From Homoserinimonas sp. OAct 916 (lineage in GTDB: Bacteria; Actinomycetota; Actinomycetes; Actinomycetales; Microbacteriaceae), in assembly GCF_003260275.1 (NCBI RefSeq), contig NZ_QJHB01000005.1, positions 186,001 through 250,000 on the forward strand: DNA of 64,000 nucleotides, written 5' to 3'. Both the position numbers and the translations under genes were made by a program. Under the pieces are notes generated by a model. It saw nothing but the letters and a program-made list of their open reading frames with translations, was not told the origin of the DNA and did no database searches. Of this stretch, positions 4,868-18,279 are shown in pieces; the stretch's first letter is position 1; each line of letters starts with the position of its first letter.

Positions 4868-5860
4868 TCAGCGCAGCTGCGGAAGCACGTCGCGTTCGAG
4901 CATCTCGATCCCCGACGTGTCATACGCGGCCTCCGGCAAGTAGAAGATCGCATAGTCGAGCCCCTTCTCCTTCATCGCCGAGAGCCGGTCGACGATCTGG
5001 TCGGGGGTACCGACCGCGAGTAACGTGGGGCGGCGATAGTCGGCCAGCACCGCCTCGGTCTGCTCGTGCCCGAGTACCGGCAGCAATCGTTCCTCGATCC
5101 GGCGCAGACGCTGATCGACGTCGGCCTGGCTGGAGCCGATCAGGCCGAAGTAGTTGGAGCTGCGGGTGATGGCGTCGAAGTCGGTACCCACCTCCCGGCA
5201 ATGTTGCTTCAGCACGGCGCTCTTGTGCGTGAAGCCCTCGGGACTGGCTTCGAAGTTTGTGTAGTTCGCATATTTTGCGGCGATGCGCAGGGTGACCTTC
5301 TCGCCCCCACCGGCAACCCACATCGGGATCCCGCCCTGCTGCAGTGGCAGCGGGCGAACGATCGCTCCATCCACCTGGTAGTGCTCGCCGTCCAAGGTTG
5401 CGGTGCCTGTGGTCCAGGCCTGCTGCATGATCTGCACGCCCTCGTCAAGTCGGGCGAGTCGCTCCCCCGCCCGCGGGAACCCGTAGCCGTAGGCACGCCA
5501 TTCCTGTTCGTACCAGCCTGCACCGATACCCATCTCGACCCGGCCGCCCGAGATCACGTCGACGGTTGCCGCCACTTTCGCCAGGTAGGCCGGGTTGCGG
5601 TAGCTCATGCAGGTGCACATCTGACCGAGCCGGATGCGTGAGGTTGTTGCCGCGAAAGCGCTCATCAGCGTCCACGCCTCGTGGGTGGCCTCCTCGGTCG
5701 CAACCGGCACGGTGTGAAAGTGGTCGTAGACCCACGCGGAGTCCCAATCACCGGCATCCGCCCGCTTCACCACGTCGTTCATGGCCTGCCACTGCTCTGC
5801 CGGGTCGATTCCGATCAGGTCGTGTCGCCAGCCTTGCGGGATAAACATTCCGAATCGCAT
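4868..5860 (-). CDS. LLM class F420-dependent oxidoreductase
   Basis: This 330-aa luciferase-like monooxygenase TIM-barrel protein starts MRFGMFIPQGWR. The family segments RLGQMCTCMSYRNPAYLAK, VEMGIGAGWYEQEWRAYG and MWVAGGGEKVTLRIAAKYA are all present, as is the late VGTPDQIVDRL. This subclass in Actinomycetota generally uses the deazaflavin F420 as hydride donor or acceptor. The substrate is unknown. It is convergent with arsC, with 50 bp between the two stops. No F420 biosynthesis gene lies in the window, so the cofactor is inferred from family membership. Confidence 0.87.
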   Translation of the reverse strand: MRFGMFIPQGWRHDLIGIDPAEQWQAMNDVVKRADAGDWDSAWVYDHFHTVPVATEEATHEAWTLMSAFAATTSRIRLGQMCTCMSYRNPAYLAKVAATVDVISGGRVEMGIGAGWYEQEWRAYGYGFPRAGERLARLDEGVQIMQQAWTTGTATLDGEHYQVDGAIVRPLPLQQGGIPMWVAGGGEKVTLRIAAKYANYTNFEASPEGFTHKSAVLKQHCREVGTDFDAITRSSNYFGLIGSSQADVDQRLRRIEERLLPVLGHEQTEAVLADYRRPTLLAVGTPDQIVDRLSAMKEKGLDYAIFYLPEAAYDTSGIEMLERDVLPQLR

Positions 5861-5965
5861 GGTTTCGAGCCTACCGGCAGGTCACAGCTGGCACCGGACC
5901 GCGGCGAACGACATGCCCCCACCAAAGCGACGGACAATCTCCCGACCCACGCGCCAACATGAGCC

Positions 5966-6568
5966 TCAGAGCCGTGCGTCAGGCTCCCTGCGATCCGATG
6001 CCGGGAGGATGCCGGCCGCCCTGGCTGGCGCTGCATACGCGTCGGCAAGTGATGCGATCGTGTCGTGGGCGTTCAGTCCGCTCGGATTCGGCACCGCCCA
6101 CAGTTCGGCGCCCGCAAGCGCCTCGCTCTGACGGCCCGCCGTCGCCTTTGGCCGGTCGAACCCCTGCCGATATGCGGTCAACCCGACGATCGCAACGACC
6201 CGCGGCTGCCACCGAGCGACATTCACCGCAAGTCGTTCCGCTCCGTCGCGCAATTCCGCGCGGGTCAGTTCGTCGGCTCGCGCGGTCGCCCGGCGCACGA
6301 GGTTCGAGACGCCGAGTCCACGCTCCAGAAACTTGCGCCTTTCCTCGTCGCTCAGCCCGTCGGCGAAACCCGGCAGACGCGGGATGATGCCGGCAGCGGC
6401 GAGCGCCGGGAAGAATCGGTTGCCCGGATGAGCAAAGGGAGTCTGCGTGGCTGCGGTCCAGAGGCTGGGGTTGATGCCGACGAACAACAGGCGCACACCG
6501 GGAGTGACGAGGTCGGGCATCGTCTGGTCGCGATACGACTCCAACTCTGCCCGGGTGAACCTCACCAT
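5966..6568 (-). CDS. mug: Mug-type G:T/U mismatch-specific uracil-DNA glycosylase
   Basis: This 200-aa base-excision repair enzyme has LLFVGINPSLWTAATQ and PFAHPGNRFFPAL, matching the GINPG...FA-PGN-F motif of family-2 (Mug/TDG) uracil-DNA glycosylases, and the C-terminal VPNPSGLNAH that replaces the classic UDG HPSPL. The reading frame is open for 85 more codons upstream, but ATG at 6568 starts exactly at the domain (MVRFTRAELESY). It overlaps the upstream DUF427 gene by 7 bp, which suggests translational coupling. It probably removes uracil or ethenocytosine opposite G. The Ser after GINP differs from the Gly of E. coli Mug. Confidence 0.85.
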   Translation of the reverse strand: MVRFTRAELESYRDQTMPDLVTPGVRLLFVGINPSLWTAATQTPFAHPGNRFFPALAAAGIIPRLPGFADGLSDEERRKFLERGLGVSNLVRRATARADELTRAELRDGAERLAVNVARWQPRVVAIVGLTAYRQGFDRPKATAGRQSEALAGAELWAVPNPSGLNAHDTIASLADAYAAPARAAGILPASDRREPDARL

Positions 6569-7089
6569 CCCATTGTTCCGGGGCCACCCTTGAACGGGCC
6601 CACGATCTGCGCGGTGATCCAGCCACCATAGAAATCGCCTGCCTGACTCATCACCTTTTCGCCGTCGACCTCGCAGGATTCCATGAGGCCCGGATAGAGT
6701 GCCACTCGGGTACCGAGCGCCTCGAATCCGCGTGCCGGCTCCGGGTAGGTCCACCCGGCGCGGGGAGCCACCACTCCGCCGGCGACCACGTCGAAATAGT
6801 GCGCCTGACCCTTGAACTCGCAAAAGCTGGTGCCGTCCACCGGCACGAGCACTCCGCTGCGGAACGCATTCAGCGGCAGGTAGTAGACGGGCGGATGACT
6901 GGTCTCCAGCACGCGCACGGCGTCCGTCGTGTCGGCGATCACCTCACCGCCGAGGCGAACGACGACGCGTTCGGGCCGAGGTTCGACCCTGGGCGGCCGC
7001 GGGTAGTCCCAGACCGACTCCTGGCCCGCGTGAGGCTTGATGGGTTTGGGGCGTCGGAAGTACTGCGGAAATCCGTGAGCTGGAGTCAT
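6562..7089 (-). CDS. DUF427 domain-containing protein
   Basis: This 175-aa soluble protein has the DUF427 beta-rich fold: VWDYPRPPRVEPRPERVVVRLGG begins the domain, followed by VLETSHPPVYYLPL, a CEFKGQAHYFDVV core and AGWTYPEPARGFEAL. The ending LYPGLMESCEVDGEKV is also conserved in the family. The biochemical role is unknown. It is the first gene of a two-gene minus-strand operon, with its stop inside the start region of the glycosylase gene (7-bp overlap). Whether the two proteins act together is not shown by sequence. Confidence 0.85.
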   Translation of the reverse strand: MTPAHGFPQYFRRPKPIKPHAGQESVWDYPRPPRVEPRPERVVVRLGGEVIADTTDAVRVLETSHPPVYYLPLNAFRSGVLVPVDGTSFCEFKGQAHYFDVVAGGVVAPRAGWTYPEPARGFEALGTRVALYPGLMESCEVDGEKVMSQAGDFYGGWITAQIVGPFKGGPGTMGW

Positions 7090-7324
7090 GCCCCTATCTT
7101 GCTGCCTGCCGCTGGGATGCCGCCGCGAGCTTCTTCACGTGATGCTCATCACTTGGAAGCTCGACACCGACTACCGTGAAATCAAGGACAGTTCACTTTT
7201 CGGCCAGATTTTGTGAGGACACCGTCATGCCGCACCCTTCTCACCCGCGCCCTCATCCAGATCGCCCAACCGCAGGGTGTTCACGAAGACCGGCAGTGAT
7301 CATCTTCGTCGGTAGCCCGAAACA

Positions 7325-8506
7325 TTGAGTACCGACGTGCCCACCCTCATTCACTCCGCTCGCCTCGTCTCTGGCGGTGTCGTCACCGACAACGCCTGGG
7401 TGATCTTCGACGGCGACCGTATTGTCGCGACCGGCGTCGGAGAGCCTCCGATTCGTGACACCGAAGCACAGCATTCTGTGCCGGATATGCCAGGAGAGGT
7501 CATCGATGCCGCCGGCCGTTTCCTCTCCCCCGGGTTCATCGACATTCACTGCCACGGAGGCGGCGGCAGTGCTTTCGACGACGGGGCCGAGGCGATCCAG
7601 ACCGCGCTCGCGCTGCACCGCAGCCGTGGAACAACCCGGTCGGTGCTCTCGCTGGTGACCGCGCCGCTGGATGCGCTCGCCCAGCGACTCGCCACCATCG
7701 CCGAGCTCACAGCGACCGACCCCCTCGTACTCGGCGCCCACCTCGAAGGCCCGTTTCTCGATCCCGGCCACAAGGGGGCGCACAACCCATCCTTGCTGCG
7801 GACTCCCGATGCGCAGAGTATCGAGCTATTGCTCGAAGCGGGCGAGGGCGCGCTCGTGCAGATGACGATCGCCCCCGAACTACCCGGCGGTCTCGACGCG
7901 GTGCGGCAACTCGTTGATGCAGGTGTCGTGGTGGCCATAGGTCACACCGATGTCGACCTCGAACAGGCACGGGTCGCATTCGACGCGGGCGCGTCGATCC
8001 TCACACATGCCTTCAACGGTATGAATGGAATCCACCACCGGGCCCCCGGCCCCATCGTCGCCGCCATGCACGATGCGCATGTGACCTTGGAGATCATCGC
8101 CGACGGTGTGCACCTGCACCCCGATATGACCAGGCTCGCGTTCGCGGGAGCACCTGGCCGAATCGCACTCGTCACCGATGCCATGGCCGCGGCCGGAATG
8201 GGCGACGGGGAATACCTGCTCGGCGAACTCCGCGTCACCGTTCGCGGCGGGCGCGCCCGCCTTGTTGACGGTGATTCCATCGCCGGGTCCACACTCACGA
8301 TGGACGCGGCGCTCCGGCATGCCGTGACGGCCGCGGGAATCGACGTGGGCGGAGCAGTGCAGGCTCTCACCGAGACCCCTGCCCGAGCGATCGGTCGCGC
8401 AGGCGACCTCGGCACCCTGGCCGCGGGCTACGCCGCCGACGCCGTGCTGCTCGACGAGACCCTGAACGTCGACGCTGTCTGGGCTGCTGGCAGAAGGCTG
8501 CGGTGA
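7325..8506 (+). CDS. nagA: N-acetylglucosamine-6-phosphate deacetylase
   Basis: This 393-aa amidohydrolase converts GlcNAc-6-phosphate to glucosamine-6-phosphate and acetate in amino-sugar and cell-wall recycling. Metal and substrate motifs are intact: DIHCHGGGGSAFDDG, HLEGPFLDPGHKGAH, AIGHTDVDLEQA, LTHAFNGMNGIHHR, IADGVHLHPDM and LVTDAMAAAG. The start used is TTG at 7325; GTG at 7337 is an alternative, and neither has a strong ribosome binding site. No nagB or PTS gene is adjacent. A GTGAT-gctc-ATCAC inverted repeat at 7139-7152, about 170 bp upstream, might be an operator, but this is weak. Confidence 0.92.
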   Translation: MSTDVPTLIHSARLVSGGVVTDNAWVIFDGDRIVATGVGEPPIRDTEAQHSVPDMPGEVIDAAGRFLSPGFIDIHCHGGGGSAFDDGAEAIQTALALHRSRGTTRSVLSLVTAPLDALAQRLATIAELTATDPLVLGAHLEGPFLDPGHKGAHNPSLLRTPDAQSIELLLEAGEGALVQMTIAPELPGGLDAVRQLVDAGVVVAIGHTDVDLEQARVAFDAGASILTHAFNGMNGIHHRAPGPIVAAMHDAHVTLEIIADGVHLHPDMTRLAFAGAPGRIALVTDAMAAAGMGDGEYLLGELRVTVRGGRARLVDGDSIAGSTLTMDAALRHAVTAAGIDVGGAVQALTETPARAIGRAGDLGTLAAGYAADAVLLDETLNVDAVWAAGRRLR

Positions 8507-8726
8507 GAACCAGCTCGTCGAAGACGCGGCGGCAGGAGCAAACCCGAGGCACCCAGCCTGCGCGTTGCCGTCATCGGCGTAGGGGCGAGCGCACCTTACA
8601 CGTATTCGGGAGATGAATAATCGCGCATCAGCCGGTTGACTGACCTCCATGGGCAGTACACCACGGTCGACCCATCGGTCATTGCCCGCCGGGAGCCGAG
8701 TGCAGGATTGTCGGCGGGGCTCTGGT

Positions 8727-8921
8727 CTAACGACCGTCGCGGGCCGCGTCGGCGCTGAGCGGCGGGCTGGAGACGATCGAAGAAGTGGGTCCCATCAATT
8801 GCTCTCGAACGCGAACTGGACTGTGTCCCGTCACCCTTTCGCCGGACGGCGCCGTGTCACGCCTGTCGGCGTCATCTGGACCGCAGGCCGGGCCTCCGGG
8901 CCCAAAGAATACCTTTTCCAT
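8727..8921 (-). CDS. Small hypothetical protein behind a strong ribosome binding site
   Basis: This is a 64-aa open frame beginning MEKVFFGPGGPACG. It has no recognised domain, signal peptide or membrane segment, and its composition is polar and Ser/Arg/Asp-rich. The reason to consider it real is a GAGGAGGAG ribosome binding site directly upstream, at about 8924-8932, and its position 12 nt after the stop of the next minus-strand gene. That layout suggests a two-gene operon. Coding bias is only moderate, so it could also be a chance frame. Confidence 0.35.
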   Translation of the reverse strand: MEKVFFGPGGPACGPDDADRRDTAPSGERVTGHSPVRVREQLMGPTSSIVSSPPLSADAARDGR

Positions 8922-8933
8922 CACTCCTCCTCA

Positions 8934-9326
8934 CTATCGGGACTTCACACGAGAACGCGGACGGCTGCGCGCCAACCTGGGGCTTGCGATACGAATGCGG
9001 CAGCGAGTCGCCCATCGCCTCCTCGCCGAGTGCAACGCGGACTGCACCTCTGGGAAGCCACCGGATTCGATAATCAGCCGCGCCGCAGCTCTATCCCAGA
9101 ACGGGGACTGCTCGCACTCCACGGCTCGGTCGGATCGCGCCCCGAGTAAGGCCACGAAGATTCGACCTGCCCGGTGGATGAAGCCGATGACGCGCCCGTC
9201 AAGACGAATCTCCTGTGTGAGTTCATCATGCCGGATGGCCGTCAGCCGAACCGTTCTGATTTGGGTCCGCCACTCCACACGCACCCAGGTGATGCGCGTC
9301 GTGAATGCCTCATATTGCGCAGACAC
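8934..9326 (-). CDS. Conserved-looking hypothetical protein
   Basis: This 130-aa protein starts at GTG 9326. It was chosen over the longer frame because GGGAGGAGG lies about 5 nt upstream on the minus strand. The N-terminal half looks like a folded domain (VRLTAIRHDELTQEIRLDG, then GRIFVALLGARSDRAVEC), while the last 40 residues are Arg/Ser-rich and probably disordered and basic. I do not recognise the family. Internal pattern FWDRAAARLIIE suggests an amphipathic helix. It is divergent from the DUF4190 gene and followed by a 64-aa frame that may be co-transcribed. Confidence 0.6.
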   Translation of the reverse strand: MSAQYEAFTTRITWVRVEWRTQIRTVRLTAIRHDELTQEIRLDGRVIGFIHRAGRIFVALLGARSDRAVECEQSPFWDRAAARLIIESGGFPEVQSALHSARRRWATRCRIRIASPRLARSRPRSRVKSR

Positions 9327-9622
9327 GATTCCTCCTCCCGAACGCGGAAGACTCACTCAGCCGAACAACGAGGGTCACCCGAGAACCGACACCTTCGGCA
9401 TCTGCGGGAACCCAACAACAACTTTGTCGTCCCCATGCTCCTACCGATGGTGCTTCGTATGGGCCCCATGGTATGTCGAAGCCCCATCCCGAACAAGGGG
9501 CAACGATGTCTCGGTCAACCGACCTCGTTGAACCGCCCAGCGAAACCCGTTCACCGGTCAGATTCGCCCATCTCCCTGGAGTGGAAAATGAGACTGGGGT
9601 GCCGTTCTGGAAGACTGGACGG

Positions 9623-10396
9623 ATGACATTTTCCCCACCGACCGAACAACACCCCGTCTCCGAGCCTCTGACTGCACCCGTCGCCCACGCGTCCTCCACG
9701 CTCGCCGTGATCTCGCTGGTTCTAGGAATCATCGCCTTTCTGACCGGGTGGGTTCCTTGCCTCGGGCTCATTCTCGGTATCGGCGCCGTCGTGCTGGGTG
9801 CCATCTCACTCGTCAGACGACAGGGCAAGGGGTTCTCGATCACTGGGATCATCCTCGGTTCCATCGCGGCACTCGTCTCGATCGGCGCGACAATTTTCTT
9901 GATCGTCGGTCTGGCCAACTGGAACACCGGGCTCTTCGCCCCGCTGGAGGAATCCGGGGAGCCCACACCAGCGGCCGAGGCCCTCACCGCGGAGGAACTG
10001 AGTCAATTCCTTGAGGTGGACGACACCACTCTCATGCAGATCATGGATGACCCGGCCTCCCATCTGGCAAAGACACTGATCATCTATGGCAGCATGGGCG
10101 AACCACTCATCCTGACCGGGGCGGATGGGGAAGGGTTGTGCGTGATGGAGTTCAGCCCGTCGGCGACCGCAGATACGAATCCAGGTGTCGACCCGCTTGC
10201 GACTAGGGCCGTGGGCATTGGTGATGGAACGCTCTACGAATGTCCGATGCTGGACTCGTTTGCCGTTCCAGACGCAGACTCCCTGTCTGGGAAGAAGAAG
10301 ATGTGGGTGATCGTGTCCGGAGAGACGATGCCTCGCGAGGGCTACGACGGCGACACCACCGATGCTGCTGTGTTCGCCGTGGTTCAGACTGAGTAG
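9623..10396 (+). CDS. DUF4190 domain membrane protein
   Basis: This 257-aa protein carries two close membrane segments, about residues 28-60 and 75-105, in the DUF4190 pattern (STLAVISLVLGIIAF, LGLILGIGAVVLGAISL, GFSITGIILGSIAAL). A roughly 140-residue domain follows and is expected to be outside the membrane; it has two Cys (GEGLCVMEFS and TLYECPML) that could form a disulfide. The frame is open well upstream, but ATG at 9623 places the start just before the Thr/Pro-rich leader typical of these proteins. The function is unknown. Exported-domain topology is inferred. Confidence 0.75.
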   Translation: MTFSPPTEQHPVSEPLTAPVAHASSTLAVISLVLGIIAFLTGWVPCLGLILGIGAVVLGAISLVRRQGKGFSITGIILGSIAALVSIGATIFLIVGLANWNTGLFAPLEESGEPTPAAEALTAEELSQFLEVDDTTLMQIMDDPASHLAKTLIIYGSMGEPLILTGADGEGLCVMEFSPSATADTNPGVDPLATRAVGIGDGTLYECPMLDSFAVPDADSLSGKKKMWVIVSGETMPREGYDGDTTDAAVFAVVQTE

Positions 10397-10569
10397 TCAC
10401 AGCCGTGCCCGCTGCATTCTCCACACTGGTCATCGCACTTTACCGGGGTCAGAACGAGCAACGCGTCGGTTGCAATCCAATTCTCGGCCGCCGCACCGGG
10501 CGCCATCGGCCGCCCACTGCCGGTCACCCCTGTAAAACTCCCCTTGGAACATCCGATTTGGCGAAATAA

Positions 10570-10585
10570 ATACCCCATGGGGTAT
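10570..10585. promoter_or_regulatory. Perfect 16-bp palindrome, CsoR/CstR-like operator
   Basis: The sequence ATACCCCATGGGGTAT is its own reverse complement. G/C-tract palindromes flanked by AT-rich ends of this kind are typical binding sites of the CsoR/CstR/FrmR metal- and sulfur-sensing repressors. It lies 59 bp upstream of the ATG of a small Cys-rich protein, where a repressor could block transcription. No CsoR-family gene is present in the window. Confidence 0.6.
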
Positions 10586-10644
10586 AGTTGACCCTGTACC
10601 GCCCGGTATCACGATTGTGGAACCGACAAACTTTTGGGAGCGCT

Positions 10645-10830
10645 ATGTGCCGAGCAGTGAGATGCAGTGTGTGCGACAAGACGACGTGGGCAGGCTGCGG
10701 CCAGCACATCCAAGACGTGAGGCGCATAGTGCCGGCGTCGAACTGGTGCAAGGGCAGTCACTCGCAGGCGCAAATCGATGCTGCGAAGGCCAGCCGTGGG
10801 GGTTTCTTCTCCCGACTCTTCGGCGGGTGA
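10645..10830 (+). CDS. Small cysteine-rich protein, possible metal-binding
   Basis: This 61-aa protein starts at ATG 10645 behind GGGAG. It contains four Cys in MCRAVRCSVC and AGCGQH plus a fifth in WCKGSH, with two His nearby, a pattern able to bind Zn or Cu. It ends in GGFFSRLFGG, a tail common to small actinobacterial proteins of this kind. I recall similar short proteins in many Actinomycetota, without known function. The palindromic CsoR/CstR-like site just upstream suggests control by copper, nickel or sulfane sulfur. A role in metal or persulfide handling is inference from that context. Confidence 0.65.
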   Translation: MCRAVRCSVCDKTTWAGCGQHIQDVRRIVPASNWCKGSHSQAQIDAAKASRGGFFSRLFGG

Positions 10831-10918
10831 ACAAAGGACTTCTGAATATTTGGACACGAGAGACGTTGCAGAGCGTCTTTCGTCACGAAACCGGTCTTCG
10901 ATAATCGGTGGTTCTCCG

Positions 10919-12394
10919 CTACTTGGCGACCACTGCCCCGGCGGGGTCCTGTCTCGCGAACCAGGCAGACAAATGCTCCGCCGTCGCGCCCATAGCGCAC
11001 GCGACATCTTTCGGAGTACCGGTTGCGACAACCTGCCCACCCGCGTCGCCGCCGCCCGGGCCCAGGTCGATGACCCAGTCGCAGGCGGCGATCGCCGCCA
11101 GGTCGTGCTCCACGAGCACGACGGTGTTGCCGGCATCTACCAGTCGTTGCAACTGGTCGAGCAGCAACCGAATATCAGCCGGGTGCAGTCCTGCGGTCGG
11201 TTCATCGAGAAGGTAGAGTGTATGCCCGCGCCGGGCCCGCTGCAGTTCTGTCGCGAGCTTGATGCGCTGCGCTTCGCCTCCGCTGAGCTCAGTCGCAGGC
11301 TGGCCGAGCCTGCGGTAGCCGAGCCCCACGTCACGAAGGGTCTCAAGACTCCGCGAGGCGGCCGGCACATCGGCGAAGAACGCCGCGGCCGAATCGACCG
11401 TCATCGCCAGAACATCCGCAATGGACTCTCCGCGATAGTTCACCTCACGTGTCTCGGAGTTGTATCGCGTCCCGTGACACGTGTGACAGGGTGCGTAGGT
11501 GCCGGGCAGAAACATCAATTCCACCGAGACGAAACCCTCGCCCCTGCACGTCTCGCACCGTCCACCCGCAACGTTGAACGAGAATCGTCCGGCGTTGTAT
11601 CCGCGAATTCGCGCCTCGTGTGTCGCGGCGAAGAGCTTGCGCACCACATCGAACATTCCGGTGTAAGTGGCCAGGTTCGACCGGGGTGTGCGGCCAATCG
11701 GCCGTTGGTCGACCACAACCAGCCGATCGAGGGACTCCAGGCCCGATATACCGGCGATGTCCACCTCGAGCATCACCTCGTCCGGGGTCTCGGCCGGCGC
11801 ATCCAGATGCCCACGCACCACATGCGCGAGCACCTGGGTCACGAGGGTTGACTTGCCTGAGCCGGAGACGCCTGTCACCGCTGTCATCACACCCAACGGC
11901 ACCTCGACCGAAGCATCTCGAAGATTGTGCCGAGTGACCCCGTTCAGGCGGAGCCAGATACGGGAGGTGCGGGGCTCACGATCTGCTTCACGGGCGTCGG
12001 GAAACAGATAACGAGCGGTGATCGAGTTCTCAACAGCTCGAAGCCCGTCGACCGGCCCGGAATAGACGACGTGCCCGCCCCCCTCGCCGGCACCCGGGCC
12101 GATGTCGACGACCCAGTCCGCGCGGCGCACGACGTCGAGATCGTGTTCGACCACGAACAGCGAGTTGCCTGACACTTTGAGGCGCTCCAGAACGTCAAGA
12201 AGTGGTGCGGCATCGGCCGGATGCAATCCGGCCGAGGGTTCGTCGAGCACATAGACGACACCGAACAGCCCGGAGCGCAACTGGGTGGCGATACGCAGCC
12301 GCTGCGATTCTCCGGTCGAGAGGGTGGTCGAGTTTCGACCGAGACTCAGATAGCCCAGCCCCAGCCCGAGCAATTCTTCGACCCGGCCGATCAC
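10919..12394 (-). pseudogene. UvrA-like ABC-ATPase paralogue, C-terminal part after a frameshift
   Basis: This 491-codon frame holds the first ABC signature (LSTGESQRLRIATQL), its Walker B (VYVLDEPSAGLHP), a second Walker A ([15 protein letters not shown]), zinc-ligand pairs CETCRGEG and CHTCHGTRY, and a second signature LSGGEAQRIKLATEL with Walker B. It is the continuation of the gene starting at 13392 but in another frame. Translation upstream of 12394 continues as EGSSEAAKRIAADVIGRV, so the true junction lies near 12434. Together the halves give about 820 aa, the size of the short UvrA paralogues without the UvrB-binding domain, linked to drug or DNA-damage tolerance. It could also be one intact gene with a sequencing error. 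Confidence 0.8.
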
Positions 12395-12402
12395 GTCGGC
12401 GG

Positions 12403-13392
12403 CTATTCGTTTCGCGGCTTCGCTGCTGCCCTCGGGGAGGTCGCTCCAGTCGCGTCGACGCCCATGCGCAACGTGTCAGCGAGGTCTGTGAGAGGAACCG
12501 CATTCATTTCAACGATGGAGCGACCGGCGAACGTCACCGCTCGCGCCTCCGGGCGTAGGCCGCTGCCGTCGCAGTCGGGGCACGGCATACTTTTCACGAA
12601 ACGCAGAGCACGCTCGCGCATCCGTTCACTCTGCGACTGTGAGAGCACATGCATGACATGTTCACGTGCGCTCCAGAACTTTCCGTAATAGCCGTGGTCG
12701 ATGCGACCGGCTTCGGGTTCGACCAATACCGACGGTTGCTCGTCGGTGTACAGCAACCAGTCTCGATCTGCTCGCGGCAGCGAACGCCACGGCTTCTCGA
12801 TGTCGATCCCGAGGCCACGCACAACACTGCGCAGGTTCGCTCCCTGCCAGGCACCCGGCCAGGCGGCGATCGCGCCCTCGCGAATGCTCAGCGTGCTATC
12901 CGGCACGAGGAGATCTTCGGTGACATCGTGCACCTTTCCGAGACCTTGGCATCGGGGGCATGCGCCGGCCGCTGTATTCGGGGAGAACGCCTCTGCCGCG
13001 AGGTGAGTGGCACCGGTTGGGTACGTGCCTGCCCGGGAGTAGAGCATGCGGAGAAGGTTGGACAGTGTGGTGATCGTGCCGACCGTCGAGCGCGAACTGG
13101 GCGCTCCGCGGCGTTGCTGGAGCGCGACTGCAGGAGGCAGTCCGGTGATCTCCCTCACCTCGGGTGCGCCCACCTGGTTCAGCAGCCGCCGGGCATAGGG
13201 CGCAACAGACTCGAAATAGCGCCGCTGGGCCTCCGCATACAACGTGCCGAACGCCAGAGACGACTTGCCCGAGCCTGACACACCGGTGAAGACCACCAGG
13301 CTGTCTCGGGGAATGTCGATGTCGACGTTCTTGAGGTTGTGCTCGCGCGCGCCCCGAACTCGAACCCAGCCATCTACATCATTGCGTGTCAT
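12403..13392 (-). pseudogene. UvrA-like ABC-ATPase paralogue, N-terminal part before a frameshift
   Basis: This 329-aa frame opens the UvrA paralogue, with ATG at 13392 behind GGAGGTGG. It carries Walker A in [20 protein letters not shown], the conserved YARRLLNQ segment, and two zinc-ligand pairs CPRCQGLG and CPDCDGSG. After MGVDATGATS the frame goes wrong and stops. Inserting one base in the run of four G (plus strand 12434-12437) would join it smoothly to the downstream frame (12394 to 10919). Intact homologues are DNA-binding ABC ATPases acting in repair or in self-protection against intercalating drugs. As written, the gene is disrupted. Confidence 0.8.
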
Positions 13393-13619
13393 GCGCCCAC
13401 CTCCTGATCTCGAATCGAAGCACTTCCCGCCGCGGCAAAGCGCCTCAGCATTCGCCGGATGAACAAACGCGGCGCGCCGACATCACACTACGCGTGCGCG
13501 CCCCGCACCCCATTCTCCAGGCAACATCGCCGAGGGGTGTGCGTGCCGAATACGTTGCTACGGGGCATGCTGGAAGCTGATGATCTTTCACCCCGGCGAA
13601 CTCTACGACTGGAGACACC

Positions 13620-14129
13620 ATGAACACTCTCATCGTTTACGAGACAATGTGGGGAAACACAGAACTGATAGCCCGGGCAATCGGTGCCGAGCTCAGCTCC
13701 ACCGTGACAGTGGACATCGTCGATTCCGATTCGGCTCCCCCCTCCATTGAAGGGTTCGACCTGCTGGTTGTGGGTGCACCGACGCACGCGTTCTCCCTGT
13801 CTCGCCCAGCAACCCGCCAGGAGGCGGCCAGCGAGCGGAACGCGCCTCATGTCCCGGTGTCGGGCGTTCGCGAGTGGCTTCAAACTCTATCCAGAACGGA
13901 GAATGCGGTTACTGCTGTGGCCTTCGACACCCGTGTAGACACACCCCGACTGCCGGGATCGGCCGCGAAAGTCATCCGACGCGAGTTACGGAGCCTGGGC
14001 TTCGAAACATCCCAGAAAGCAAAAACTTTTCGCGTTCACGGGTACGAGGGACCTCTCGTCGACGGCGAGCCCGCCCGCGCGGCCGCCTGGATCCGATCGA
14101 TCGCATCGGCCCGGGAGTCGAATCGCTAG
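13620..14129 (+). CDS. Flavodoxin-like domain protein
   Basis: This 169-aa protein begins MNTLIVYETMWGNTELIARAI, which matches the phosphate-binding FMN loop of flavodoxins (here ETMWGNTE). The second conserved stretch, FDLLVVGAPTHAFSLSRP, would form the isoalloxazine loop. It lacks long-chain flavodoxin insertions. The ATG at 13620 has GGAGAC upstream. Proteins of this type are common next to stress and alcohol-dehydrogenase genes in Actinomycetota, and may transfer electrons or act as a quinone/nitro reductase partner. It is divergent from the UvrA-like gene. The partner enzyme is not identified. Confidence 0.82.
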   Translation: MNTLIVYETMWGNTELIARAIGAELSSTVTVDIVDSDSAPPSIEGFDLLVVGAPTHAFSLSRPATRQEAASERNAPHVPVSGVREWLQTLSRTENAVTAVAFDTRVDTPRLPGSAAKVIRRELRSLGFETSQKAKTFRVHGYEGPLVDGEPARAAAWIRSIASARESNR

Positions 14130-14195
14130 CATCCCGTCATCGCCTGGACTCCATCGGGACCAAAATTGTTGCCTCACATCTGAGGCGAGTCGGGA

Positions 14196-14480
14196 TCACA
14201 CAGACCCGGTACCGTCGCCACTTCTGCGAGCGCGACCCCACGAGCTGAACCGAAAGATGTAGATCGCATCGAGGATCCCGGCGGTGTTGGCCAGGAGCAA
14301 TGCCGTGTACCACGGCTTGCTCCCATCTCGGGCCGCATGCCACATGGACACAGCCTTCCACGCGACACCCCACACGACGACACCCGAGAAGAACGCTCGT
14401 TGGCCGGGGCTGAATCTGTGCTCCATGTGCTTCCTCATTTCGGCGAGATGTCTCTCTCGATCCCTCATCCTGCTTGTCAT
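14196..14480 (-). CDS. DUF5652-like small membrane protein
   Basis: This 94-aa protein has two membrane segments (RAFFSGVVVWGVAWKAVSMW and WYTALLLANTAGILDAIYIF) with a short Gly/Lys loop between them, the layout of the DUF5652 family. The N-terminus is charged and His/Arg-rich. The start ATG at 14480 is set by a TGATG junction: it overlaps the stop of the alcohol dehydrogenase gene by one base, so translation is probably coupled. Function unknown. The pairing with a dehydrogenase is worth noting but its meaning is not clear. Confidence 0.75.
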   Translation of the reverse strand: MTSRMRDRERHLAEMRKHMEHRFSPGQRAFFSGVVVWGVAWKAVSMWHAARDGSKPWYTALLLANTAGILDAIYIFRFSSWGRARRSGDGTGSV

Positions 14481-15514
14481 CACGGCACCACGACCGCTCG
14501 TCCCAGTATGGTGCCGGCCCTGAGGCGTTCGTAGGCCTCAGGGGCATGCTCAAGATCGAAGCGTTCGGTGTGAACCCTGATCTGTCCGGTGCGGGCAAGG
14601 TCGAGAACCTCCATCAGCTCCGATCGCGAGCCCCAATAGGGTGCGCGAACAGATGCGCCGAACGGCGTGGAGAAGAAACCCGTAGGAAGCACGCCTCCCC
14701 CGATCCCGACGATCTGAATGACACCATTGGCCACGACGGATTCTCGCGCGATGTCGAGAGTCGCCTGCACCCCGACAAAGTCGAATACGGCGTCAGCACC
14801 GCGTCCTTTTGTCAACTCGCGGATGAATGCCGGGGCATCGCTGTTCGAGGGAACAACATGGTGGGCTCCGACCTCGGTCGCGAGCCGCAACTTCTCCCTG
14901 TCGACGTCGAGCACCACGATCATCGCCGCGCTGACTGCGCGGAGGATCTGCACACCCACATGCCCCAACCCACCGGCACCGATCACAACGGCCGTCGAAC
15001 CAGGCACCAGGGCGGAAAGACTCGACATGATGGCGTGGTACGGCGTGAGCCCGGCATCGGTGAGGGAGACGCTCTCGACCGGGTCCAGATCTCCGAGAGG
15101 TACAAGGTGCCTGACGTCGTCAACGATCAGGTACTCGGCGAGTGCGCCGGGAGCGCCGAGGCCCGGCGGCGCAATCCCGAGCTCCGCGGCACGGAGGCAA
15201 TAGTTCTCTTTGCCTTGGGCGCATGCATGGCAGAGACCACAGCCCCAGGGGCCGTAGACGGCGACCGAATCTCCGACCTCGACACCGACCACCCCGGCGC
15301 CGAGTTTCTCAACAACACCGGCACCCTCATGGCCCAGAGTAAGCGGGAGTCCGTAGATGTATTGCTCCTCCGGCAGGGTCATGACGAATTCATCGGAATG
15401 ACAGAGACCCGCTGCTGTGACCTTCAGCCGGATCTGCCCCGGTCCGGGCTCTGGGGTGTCGATCTCGACGACTTCGGGGGGTGCCCCGATGGTTCGATAT
15501 TGGAGTGCGCGCAT
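14480..15514 (-). CDS. Zinc-dependent NAD(P)-linked alcohol dehydrogenase
   Basis: This 344-aa medium-chain dehydrogenase has the catalytic zinc site (GLCHSDEF, LGHEGAGVVEKLG), the structural-zinc Cys cluster (CGLCHACAQGKENYC) and the nucleotide fold VVIGAGGLGHVGVQIL followed by DVDREKL, where the Asp favours NAD. The frame extends 30 codons upstream, but ATG at 15514 begins the family domain (MRALQYRTIG) and has GGAGGAT upstream. It reduces or oxidises an alcohol/aldehyde of unknown identity. It forms a two-gene operon with a small membrane protein. Confidence 0.9.
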   Translation of the reverse strand: MRALQYRTIGAPPEVVEIDTPEPGPGQIRLKVTAAGLCHSDEFVMTLPEEQYIYGLPLTLGHEGAGVVEKLGAGVVGVEVGDSVAVYGPWGCGLCHACAQGKENYCLRAAELGIAPPGLGAPGALAEYLIVDDVRHLVPLGDLDPVESVSLTDAGLTPYHAIMSSLSALVPGSTAVVIGAGGLGHVGVQILRAVSAAMIVVLDVDREKLRLATEVGAHHVVPSNSDAPAFIRELTKGRGADAVFDFVGVQATLDIARESVVANGVIQIVGIGGGVLPTGFFSTPFGASVRAPYWGSRSELMEVLDLARTGQIRVHTERFDLEHAPEAYERLRAGTILGRAVVVP

Positions 15515-15600
15515 GCCCCCATCATCCTCCTTCCTCATGGAGAGTTGAAAGCCTTCGACTTCCGTTTTTTGGAATGAGGCTCGCAGAACCGTATCCACCG

Positions 15601-18279
15601 TCACCGCTTCGACCTGCCAGCGGGTGACAGGCGTTCTGCGGTACTGAATCGGCGCATCCGGCGGCGCAGGTGGCTGTCGGCACGTGGGGCTCGTGGGGTC
15701 TCATCGCCCGTGCGGGTGACCGCCATGCGGTAGAAGAGCGTCTTCCCAAACTCAACGAGCACCAGATACCCGACCACCATGAGTGCCAGGACGGCGAAGA
15801 ACCCGACCGGAAGCGGAGAGAATCCGAGCACGCCAGCCAGAGGGCTGGCCGGAAGGATGATGCCGATTGTCACCGCTGCGAGCGCGGCGAGAGTCAAGGG
15901 AAGACTCGGGTGACTGCGGAAGAACGGGATCCTTCGGGTTCGGATTGCAAAGATGACCAAGGTTTGAGTGGCGAGCGATTCCACAAACCAGCCCGTGTGA
16001 AACAGCTCGGGCCCGGCGTTGAACCCCCAGAGCATCACTCCGAAGAGAATGAAGTCGAACACGGAGCTCAATGGTCCGAAGATCAGCATGAACCTGCGGA
16101 TGAACCGGATGTCCCATTGGGAGGGCTTGCGCAGTTGTTCCTCATCCACGTTGTCGGTCGGAATCGCAAGCTGACTGGCGTCGTAAATCAGGTTATTCAG
16201 CAAGATCTGCGAGGGCAGCATGGGAAGGAAGGGCAGGAAGATCGAAGCACCGGCGGCACTGAACATGTTCCCGAAATTGCTGGAGGTACCCATCAGAACG
16301 TATTTGATGGTGTTTGCGAAGATGCGTCGCCCCTCCATCACACCGTCGGCAAGCACATTCAAGTCCTTCTCAAGCAGGATGACGTCTGCCGCATCTTTTG
16401 CCACGTCGGTCGCCGAATCCACCGAGATGCCCACATCGGCGGCGTGCAGCGCGAGTGCGTCATTGACCCCATCGCCGAGGAATGCCACGTCGCCGCCTGT
16501 GCGTCGCTGGAGCGAGACGATCCGGGCCTTCTGTTCAGGACTGACTCGAGCGAACACTCGGGTCGCGGCTATCACAGCGGCCAGTCGAGTGTCGTCGATG
16601 GCGTCAAGATCCACACCGGTGAGCGTGCCCCCGTCGACCAACCCGAGATCGTCGCACACCTTCGTCGCCACGACCGCGCTGTCGCCGGTGATCACCTTGA
16701 CCGAGACCCCCAGCGCCGACAATCGTTTCAGTGCCGCCTCGGCATCCGGTTTCGCCGGGTCGAGGAACACAAGGAATCCCACCAGCGTCAGGTCGCGCTC
16801 ATCCGCTGGAGTGACCACATGCCTGTCCTCGGCGGCTCGTGTTGCCACGGCGATCACCCGATTGCCCGCCGCGAATTCAGCGTCCAACCGCGACTCGGCA
16901 GAGGCCGGAACGTGTGTGCAACGCTCCAGCACCGTCTCCGGAGCGCCCTTGGTGACGATGATGCCCGTGCCGGCAGCATCTCTCACCAGCACCGACACGA
17001 GACGTCGATCATGATCGAACGGCAGGATCGACACCCGCTCGTATCCCGCAATGGCACTGGCCTGGGCGCTGGCCGCCGGAGAGTTCCATAGCGCCATGTC
17101 GAGCGAATTGCCTCCCACCGCCTGCCCGTGGGCGCCCACCACTTCTGTGCACACCAGCCCCCACTTCAGCGGATCCGCCGACGGGGCACCCGTTGCAGAG
17201 ACCGTGCGCATGAAGCTGATGCTGCCGACCGTCAGTGTTCCGGTCTTATCGGTGAAGAGGGTGTCCACGTCGCCCAAGTCTTCGATGCACACCAATCGTT
17301 TCACGAGCACCTTACGGGCCGACATCCGCTTCGAACCCGCTGCGAGACTCGCCGATACAACTGCGGGTAACAGCTGCGGTGTGATTCCGACTGCAATGGC
17401 CAACGAGAACAAGAGCGCGTCAAAGAGGGGCTTGTGAAGCGCGATGTTGATCACGAAGATCGACCCGGTGAGGATGACCGCCACATAGACGAGCAGCACT
17501 GAGAACTTACGCAGCCCCACCTGGAATTGGGTCTCGACCTGATGCTCGCCGAGTCCGGCCGCGATCCGTCCGAATTCCGTGTTGACACCGGTGGCGATCA
17601 CAATTCCTGTGCCTGCGCCACCGTGCACCACCGACCCCATCATTGCCACACTGGAGAGCTCAGCGAGTGCCGTGTGCTCTGGCACGGGTGCAACCGATTT
17701 CTCTACGGGAGATGACTCACCGGTCAGGGTCGATTCGTCACATTCGAGATTCTGCACCTCTGAGAGTCGAATGTCTGCTGGAACAATGTCACCGAGCTGC
17801 AATGAGGTGACATCCCCCGGGACCAACCCCGTGACGTCAACCGGCACACGACGCCCGTCTCTGATCACTGTCGCCCGGTGGTGGATCTGCGAGTGCAGGG
17901 ACTCGGCCGCCTTTTCGGCACGGTACTCATTGACGAACCCGAGGCCAATGGACAGGGCAACGATCACACCGATGATGATGGCGTCGCTGATCTCTCCGAC
18001 GAACGATGACGCGACCGCGGCGATGAGAAGCAACCCGAGTAATGGGGAGCGCACTTGATGCCACAGCACCAACAGGGCCCGTGCCCGGTGAGACGACACC
18101 GCGTTGGGGCCAAACCGCGCGAGCCGAGCAGCCGCCTCGCTCGAGGAAAGGCCCGAGTCGTCCACTCCCATCCGGCCGCACACGTCATAGACCTCGAGGC
18201 AGGCGGCTTGCCGTGAGTCAAGGGCTGAGATGACCGACGCTTCTCGATCGTCGGTCTCAGACGACGGGCGGGTTGTCAT
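15601..18279 (-). CDS. mgtA: Magnesium-translocating P-type ATPase (MgtA-like, P3B)
   Basis: This 892-aa integral membrane pump has the actuator motif STLTGESSPVEK, the phosphorylation site TLFTDKTGTLTVG around residue 340, and the hinge FLGDGVNDALALHAADVG. The C-terminal membrane block SNFGNMFSAAGASIFLPFLP and LIYDASQLAIPTDNVDEE is characteristic of MgtA/MgtB rather than Ca2+ or H+ pumps. Such pumps move Mg2+ into the cytoplasm, often at low external Mg2+ or under acid stress. The in-frame ATG at 18279 is preferred over a start 20 codons upstream because MTTRPSSETDD fits family length. No Mg2+ leader element was recognised. Confidence 0.9.
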   Translation of the reverse strand: MTTRPSSETDDREASVISALDSRQAACLEVYDVCGRMGVDDSGLSSSEAAARLARFGPNAVSSHRARALLVLWHQVRSPLLGLLLIAAVASSFVGEISDAIIIGVIVALSIGLGFVNEYRAEKAAESLHSQIHHRATVIRDGRRVPVDVTGLVPGDVTSLQLGDIVPADIRLSEVQNLECDESTLTGESSPVEKSVAPVPEHTALAELSSVAMMGSVVHGGAGTGIVIATGVNTEFGRIAAGLGEHQVETQFQVGLRKFSVLLVYVAVILTGSIFVINIALHKPLFDALLFSLAIAVGITPQLLPAVVSASLAAGSKRMSARKVLVKRLVCIEDLGDVDTLFTDKTGTLTVGSISFMRTVSATGAPSADPLKWGLVCTEVVGAHGQAVGGNSLDMALWNSPAASAQASAIAGYERVSILPFDHDRRLVSVLVRDAAGTGIIVTKGAPETVLERCTHVPASAESRLDAEFAAGNRVIAVATRAAEDRHVVTPADERDLTLVGFLVFLDPAKPDAEAALKRLSALGVSVKVITGDSAVVATKVCDDLGLVDGGTLTGVDLDAIDDTRLAAVIAATRVFARVSPEQKARIVSLQRRTGGDVAFLGDGVNDALALHAADVGISVDSATDVAKDAADVILLEKDLNVLADGVMEGRRIFANTIKYVLMGTSSNFGNMFSAAGASIFLPFLPMLPSQILLNNLIYDASQLAIPTDNVDEEQLRKPSQWDIRFIRRFMLIFGPLSSVFDFILFGVMLWGFNAGPELFHTGWFVESLATQTLVIFAIRTRRIPFFRSHPSLPLTLAALAAVTIGIILPASPLAGVLGFSPLPVGFFAVLALMVVGYLVLVEFGKTLFYRMAVTRTGDETPRAPRADSHLRRRMRRFSTAERLSPAGRSKR

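Follow-up and report, generated by a model that had tools for sequence, protein, structure and literature searches.

The gene encoding a Cys/His-rich protein of 61 aa (MCRAVRCSVCDKTTWAGCGQH...), located within the 64-kb stretch of the Homoserinimonas sp. OAct 916 genome analysed here (hereafter the window), is, as judged from the DNA sequence and with a probability that we put at about 0.9, subject to CstR-type regulation, and the 16-bp palindrome ATACCCCATGGGGTAT preceding it very probably serves as the operator of a repressor that senses persulfide. The wider statement, namely that CstR-type regulation goes together with a role of whatever kind in sulfane-sulfur handling, is somewhat less secure and still highly likely. 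An earlier reading based on the sequence only had assigned the gene to a regulon for copper or sulfane sulfur; because of the spacer length of the operator, the neighbouring genes and a published operator, the sulfane-sulfur part of that proposal can be kept, and the copper part is to be dropped. Operators and regulators of this kind have been described before; within the literature searched, no report was found of the small protein as part of such a regulon, and a literal search with its core motif returned a single, unrelated paper. The small-protein family is encoded next to sulfur-detoxification genes in many actinobacteria, and is therefore probably an overlooked part of their reactive-sulfur handling.

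The palindrome is perfect throughout, and its distance of 59 bp to the start of the 61-aa ORF, as claimed in the sequence-only reading, was confirmed, as was the Cys/His-rich nature of the product (Table 1). It has the form ATACCC-N4-GGGTAT (hereafter N4) and, written as ATACC-CCATGG-GGTAT, fits ATACC-N6-GGTAT. Within the 64-kb window, ATACCCCATGGGGTAT had no other match when up to 3 mismatches were allowed (shuffle mean 0.09), and the pattern TACCCC-N0-6-GGGGTA matched once, versus 0.00 in shuffles. A generic promoter scan, which covers spacings of 16-18 bp only, returned nothing at the window site, where the spacing of the putative promoter elements is 19 bp. This same spacing is found in the relatives: among the best 80 of 572, a TTGAC box is present in 27 loci, and in every one of them a 19-bp gap separates this box from the hexamer that starts at the last TAT of the palindrome, and TATAGT is the commonest hexamer at that -10 place (19 of 52 loci in the same best 80 of 572). 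Since the palindrome lies between and across the two promoter elements, a repressor bound to it would cover the promoter. On the minus strand of the window, at 10919-13392, a UvrA-like ATPase, named by sequence, is spread over a pair of ORFs whose frames differ (10919-12394 and 12403-13392), and is therefore frameshifted or split.

Table 1. Features of the 61-aa gene and its upstream region, in window coordinates
Feature	Position	Strand	Basis
Putative -35 element TTGGCG	10558..10563	+	Sequence; TATAGT 19 bp further
Operator ATACCCCATGGGGTAT, CstR/ScCsoR type	10570..10585	.	Sequence; same kind of site in relatives; published ScCsoR consensus
Putative -10 element TATAGT	10583..10588	+	Sequence; TAT common to the palindrome end
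Gene for 61-aa Cys/His-rich protein, unnamed family	10645..10830	+	ORF (ATG at 10645, TGA at 10828-10830); alignment of relatives

The genome comprises 3.64 Mb in 135 contigs, the window being on contig C93. In agreement with the sequence-only reading, no CsoR-family gene was present among the ORFs listed at 5000-17000 of the window, nor was there any PF02583 match on contig C93. That reading had also made its proposal depend on a CsoR-family regulator being encoded somewhere in the genome, and three CsoR-family (PF02583) genes were identified, on contigs C84, C51 and C49. The product of the C84 gene, a 95-aa protein encoded together with a rhodanese, matches PF02583 at 78.7 bits (cut-off 22.8). 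Its Cys39 and Cys68 are 29 residues apart, and position 64, four residues ahead of the second Cys, holds an Ala and not a His; in an alignment, its nearest solved chains (7mq3 and 7mq1) likewise lack a His at that position. The C51 and C49 proteins, on the other hand, carry a His 25 residues after a Cys. The best NCBIfam model was the copper repressor RicR for the C51 and C49 proteins and FrmR for the C84 protein, below cut-off in each case. Two Cys residues about 29 residues apart without the copper-site His characterize the CstR type, whereas a His in the metal position is typical of CsoR copper sensors. By its two-Cys pattern lacking the metal-site His, the C84 protein is therefore predicted to be CstR-like.

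A whole-genome scan for the palindrome, which the sequence-only reading had suggested as a check, revealed 10 sites of the form ATACCC-N3-6-GGGTAT, and none with a reversed-pattern control. Six of these are N4 sites. Apart from the window site (C93:196570), they comprise two sites on C62 (C62:160128 and C62:160162) that precede a persulfide dioxygenase (PDO)-rhodanese gene followed by a TauE/SafE gene (Pfam), a site between a thioredoxin gene and the rhodanese-CsoR operon of the C84 regulator (C84:1993), a site beside a DUF302 gene (C104:17010) and, as an exception, a site that precedes a short, broken copper-ATPase-like start (C49:21233). The proposal that a CsoR/CstR-type operator precedes a regulon member is thus supported, with the regulator encoded elsewhere in the genome.

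The association of such sites with the small gene extends to its relatives. Among the best 30 family (Microbacteriaceae) loci, window included, 26 carry ATACCC-N4-GGGTAT no further than 200 bp upstream, two copies being present in 11. In a second, independent collection made up of the best 80 of 572 relatives, to which the following counts refer, ATACC-N6-GGTAT was found within 150 bp upstream in 52 of the 80 loci, at least two sites being present in 30, as compared with 12 of 3539 random 150-bp windows drawn from those loci; 14 of the 82 sites were perfect palindromes. A CstR-like gene, identified with the C84 protein as query, lies divergently within 700 bp in 36/80 loci and on the same strand, just upstream, in 9/80. 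PDO is encoded within 1 kb downstream in 31/80, and a shorter, 37-aa paralogue and a thioredoxin are encoded at 23/80 and 12/80 of the loci, respectively, the usual order being CstR-like gene, operators, 61-aa gene, 37-aa paralogue and PDO. Altogether, a site or a CstR/PDO neighbour was found in 64/80 loci and none of these in 16/80, counts that do not represent independent events because the 80 loci share ancestry within genera, some of the genomes are also among the 299 family genomes searched, and near-identical island copies (L118-L121, L123 and L124) are included. Phylum-wide, a CsoR-family gene occurs within 1.5 kb in 12 of 29 loci (the type being ambiguous in L152) and a site within 200 bp in only 6 of 26 scored loci. 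That is, the CstR link is strong in Microbacteriaceae and their relatives, and partial elsewhere.

The six near-identical copies just mentioned show 97-99.6% DNA identity over as much as 12 kb (in four of them the length is about 12 kb), and in this common segment a CstR-like gene is followed by the small gene. The records in question are titled Microbacterium (plasmid and MAG), Thermocrispum, Cellulosimicrobium, Microlunatus and Haematomicrobium, and the segment could represent either a mobile island that has spread recently or contamination common to these assemblies.

The small protein itself contains five Cys and at least two His residues (C2, C7, C10, C18 and C35; H21 and H39). It matched no family in Pfam, NCBIfam or PHROGs, and the claim that it is new holds in the sense that the family is absent from these three collections. 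In a single-sequence search, the protein or close relatives were found in 131 of 299 Microbacteriaceae genomes, covering 55 of 85 genera, part of these matches corresponding to the 37-aa paralogue. With a profile, 49 of the 396 genomes searched from the phylum were found to encode the protein, and the family had matches in 41 of 72,556 plasmid records. Two of the family genomes (G095 and G207) contain up to five small-family matches each, including two full-length ones apiece. The 37-aa paralogue (MCARITCDRCGKPTWAGCGQHVEEALAGVPEADRCRC type) shares with the 61-aa protein the arrangement M-C-x4-C-x2-C...W-x-G-C-G-x-H...C and is found in the same operons; it lacks the C-terminal tail of the longer protein and, like it, has no NCBIfam match. 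A contig classified as viral has one family member at its edge (L163:5001-5180), and a phage record of human faecal origin has another (MT835623.1:19139-19300). A viral origin of the small protein was considered on the basis of these two matches and rejected, as they are not typical.

An alignment of members was obtained by thinning near-identical rows (129 to 103), dropping two members with a GTG start (L024 and L058) and adding the window protein, resulting in 102 rows; three members (L143, L157 and L162) had been left out as they showed no CxxC...W pattern at the expected place. Ten positions are invariant in the 102 aligned members (M1, C2, C7, C10, W15, G17, C18, G19, H21 and C35), although the invariance of C7, C10 and W15 is not independent evidence, that pattern having partly served to choose the rows. 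A C-terminal tail, GFFxRLFGR, and the CxxC/CxxH pattern are also conserved in the relatives. The predicted structural model of the 61-aa protein is a hairpin plus a helix, of moderate quality (pLDDT 81.8, pTM 0.53). Foldseek searches with this model yielded mainly zinc-finger and similar domains, with a best E-value of only 4.6, and the VIA comparison gave Z below 2, so that the structure search with the moderate model (pTM 0.53) gave no usable match among solved folds. By sequence, the PDB contained only weak matches to the protein (best E-value 0.097) and no relative.

Taken together, these data lead us to propose the following scheme. The repressor acting on the palindrome would most likely be the 95-aa C84 protein, which, when bound between the -35 and -10 elements and over them, would keep the 61-aa gene off. 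Sulfane sulfur would persulfidate the Cys residues of this repressor and cause its release, upon which the 61-aa protein would be made alongside the products of the PDO, rhodanese, thioredoxin, sulfite-exporter and DUF302 genes. Most likely, it would be a small Zn-stabilised thiol protein, in which the CxxC...CxxH residues hold Zn and shape the hairpin-plus-helix structure, and the remaining C2 and C35 may accept or relay sulfane sulfur among the enzymes of the persulfide response. Removal of the N-terminal Met exposes residue 2 of a protein, and may in this case expose C2 at the N-terminus. Both the Zn and the relay function are unproven because the model is only moderate and no solved fold or PDB relative matches, and the view that the small protein is a persulfide relay or buffer is put forward tentatively.

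It is also possible that the gene is a member of the CstR regulon, as proposed above, with a product that is a structural or adaptor subunit, e.g. one that holds PDO, thioredoxin and rhodanese together via the GFFxRLFGR tail, or a Zn/thiol chaperone. The conservation of this tail and of the CxxC/CxxH pattern among relatives, the position of the gene directly before PDO or thioredoxin in their operons and the small hairpin-plus-helix model are all consistent with such a role. However, the window gene stands on its own, distant from PDO and thioredoxin, and C2 and C35, which lie beyond the four CxxC/CxxH positions, are invariant in the 102 members, a feature that hints at reactive thiols. Overall, a role as PDO adaptor is about as likely as one in sulfur relay.

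Small Cys/His-rich proteins are often metal-binding, and a copper regulon was the first possibility considered, since, of the three CsoR-family genes, two resemble genes for metal sensors. According to this explanation, a copper-sensing repressor of the CsoR/RicR type would control the gene, and its product would be a metallothionein-like Cu(I) or Zn buffer. The C51 and C49 regulators do carry the metal-position His, their operators have ATACCC/GGGTAT arms too, and one N4 site, as described above, precedes a broken copper-ATPase start. This last case, in which a degenerate copper-ATPase fragment follows the site, means that the spacer rule is not absolute. Nevertheless, all four sites of the 17-bp, N5 form in the genome (C49:3541, C51:4424, C62:140704 and C125:210175) adjoin either the C49 and C51 CsoR-family genes or two ORFs that resemble copper ATPases in sequence, whereas the window site is of the N4 form. 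Within a single genome, the copper-type and persulfide-type operators thus measure 17 and 16 bp, respectively, differing by one spacer base pair, and the split is alike family-wide. Furthermore, in the best 80 of 572 relatives, the N5 form (ATACC-N7-GGTAT) was found upstream of the small gene in none of the 80 loci, and copper-ATPase matches in just two of the 80 neighbourhoods.

The two spacer forms were also compared in a control sample of 60 family genomes from 60 genera, 21 of which have the small protein. N4 sites were present in 22 and N5 sites in 40 of the 60 genomes. The occurrence of N4 follows that of the small protein (18 of 21 genomes with the protein versus 4 of 39 without it; Fisher p 8e-9), whereas that of N5 is unrelated to it (14/21 versus 26/39; p 1). 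When one locus per genome was examined for marker genes, the sulfur-side markers including the small protein itself and its 37-aa paralogue, 13 of 21 N4 loci had sulfur-side markers, none had copper markers and eight had neither; conversely, 23 of 29 N5 loci had copper markers only, one had both kinds and five had neither. With respect to spacer, neighbours and co-occurrence, a copper regulon is thus rejected as the working explanation, and we regard it as very improbable. Five of the eight unmarked N4 loci encode a pyridine-nucleotide-disulfide oxidoreductase (with a partial rhodanese domain in three cases), one encodes OsmC beside the site, and of the remaining two, one has an MscS channel and the other lacks a clear ORF. 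One of the five oxidoreductases was tested and was closest to CoA-disulfide reductase, below the model cut-off. These five CoA-disulfide-reductase-like flavoproteins, each preceded by the N4 palindrome (L199, L200, L207, L209 and L212, near position 1501), are probable further regulon members.

Finally, a scan flags the palindrome as a weak minus-strand terminator. The explanation that it is a terminator hairpin, or a repeat arising by chance with no regulator acting on it, is practically excluded by the shuffle mean of 0.6 against the one match in that scan, by the upstream-site counts at related loci, where the site recurs at the same promoter place across genera with the fixed 19-bp spacing, and by the empty reversed-pattern control in the own genome.

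Reactive sulfur species are an active field of research, and the CstR-like regulon of actinobacteria has been described in only a few species. The small protein stands at the head of PDO operons in many genera, yet it has no name and no paper in the literature searched; its function is directly testable because the operator predicts the inducer. Moreover, the one-bp difference in spacer length offers a simple rule by which to sort the targets of CsoR-family paralogues sharing a cell. The most far-reaching interpretation, in which an actinobacteria-wide, so far unnamed family of 37-65-aa proteins whose N-terminal cysteine is exposed would be a dedicated persulfide carrier of the CstR response, passing sulfane sulfur among thioredoxin, rhodanese and PDO, and in which, in addition, the CstR-like and copper repressors of one cell would distinguish their promoters by a single spacer base pair (N4 versus N5), is in our opinion rather doubtful as a whole.

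In Staphylococcus aureus, CstR is a CsoR-family persulfide sensor that controls the sulfurtransferase, persulfide dioxygenase and sulfite-exporter genes of the cst operon, and the system described here is alike in combining a CsoR-family regulator of predicted persulfide-sensing type with sulfur-handling target genes. We know of no relative of the small protein in the cst operons of Firmicutes. Copper CsoR and RicR resemble the present system in the fold of the regulator and in the ATACCC/GGGTAT arms of the operator, but differ in that their spacer is one bp longer (N5, 17 bp), that they possess the metal-site His and that their targets are copper ATPase and CopZ-like genes. The Thermus CsoR-family regulator of sulfur oxidation has a different site, according to the available part of the source (PMC10318464). 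The closest parallel is ScCsoR (SCO0620) of Streptomyces coelicolor which, in the available part of its description, binds the 16-bp ATACCn6GGTAT, of which the persulfide dioxygenase promoter contains two copies, comes off the DNA in response to hydrogen polysulfide and requires both Cys37 and Cys66 (PMC7533328). The four genes of that circuit, as given in the same portion of the source, are those for the regulator, PDO, a rhodanese and a sulfite transporter, a small Cys-rich protein not being among them (PMC7533328). As far as this portion allows a comparison, the two systems agree in the 16-bp operator, the two PDO sites, the two-Cys regulator with its 29-residue spacing, and PDO-rhodanese, TauE and rhodanese as targets (PMC7533328). 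They differ in that the regulon described here gains a solo small-protein gene, which in relatives heads the PDO operon.
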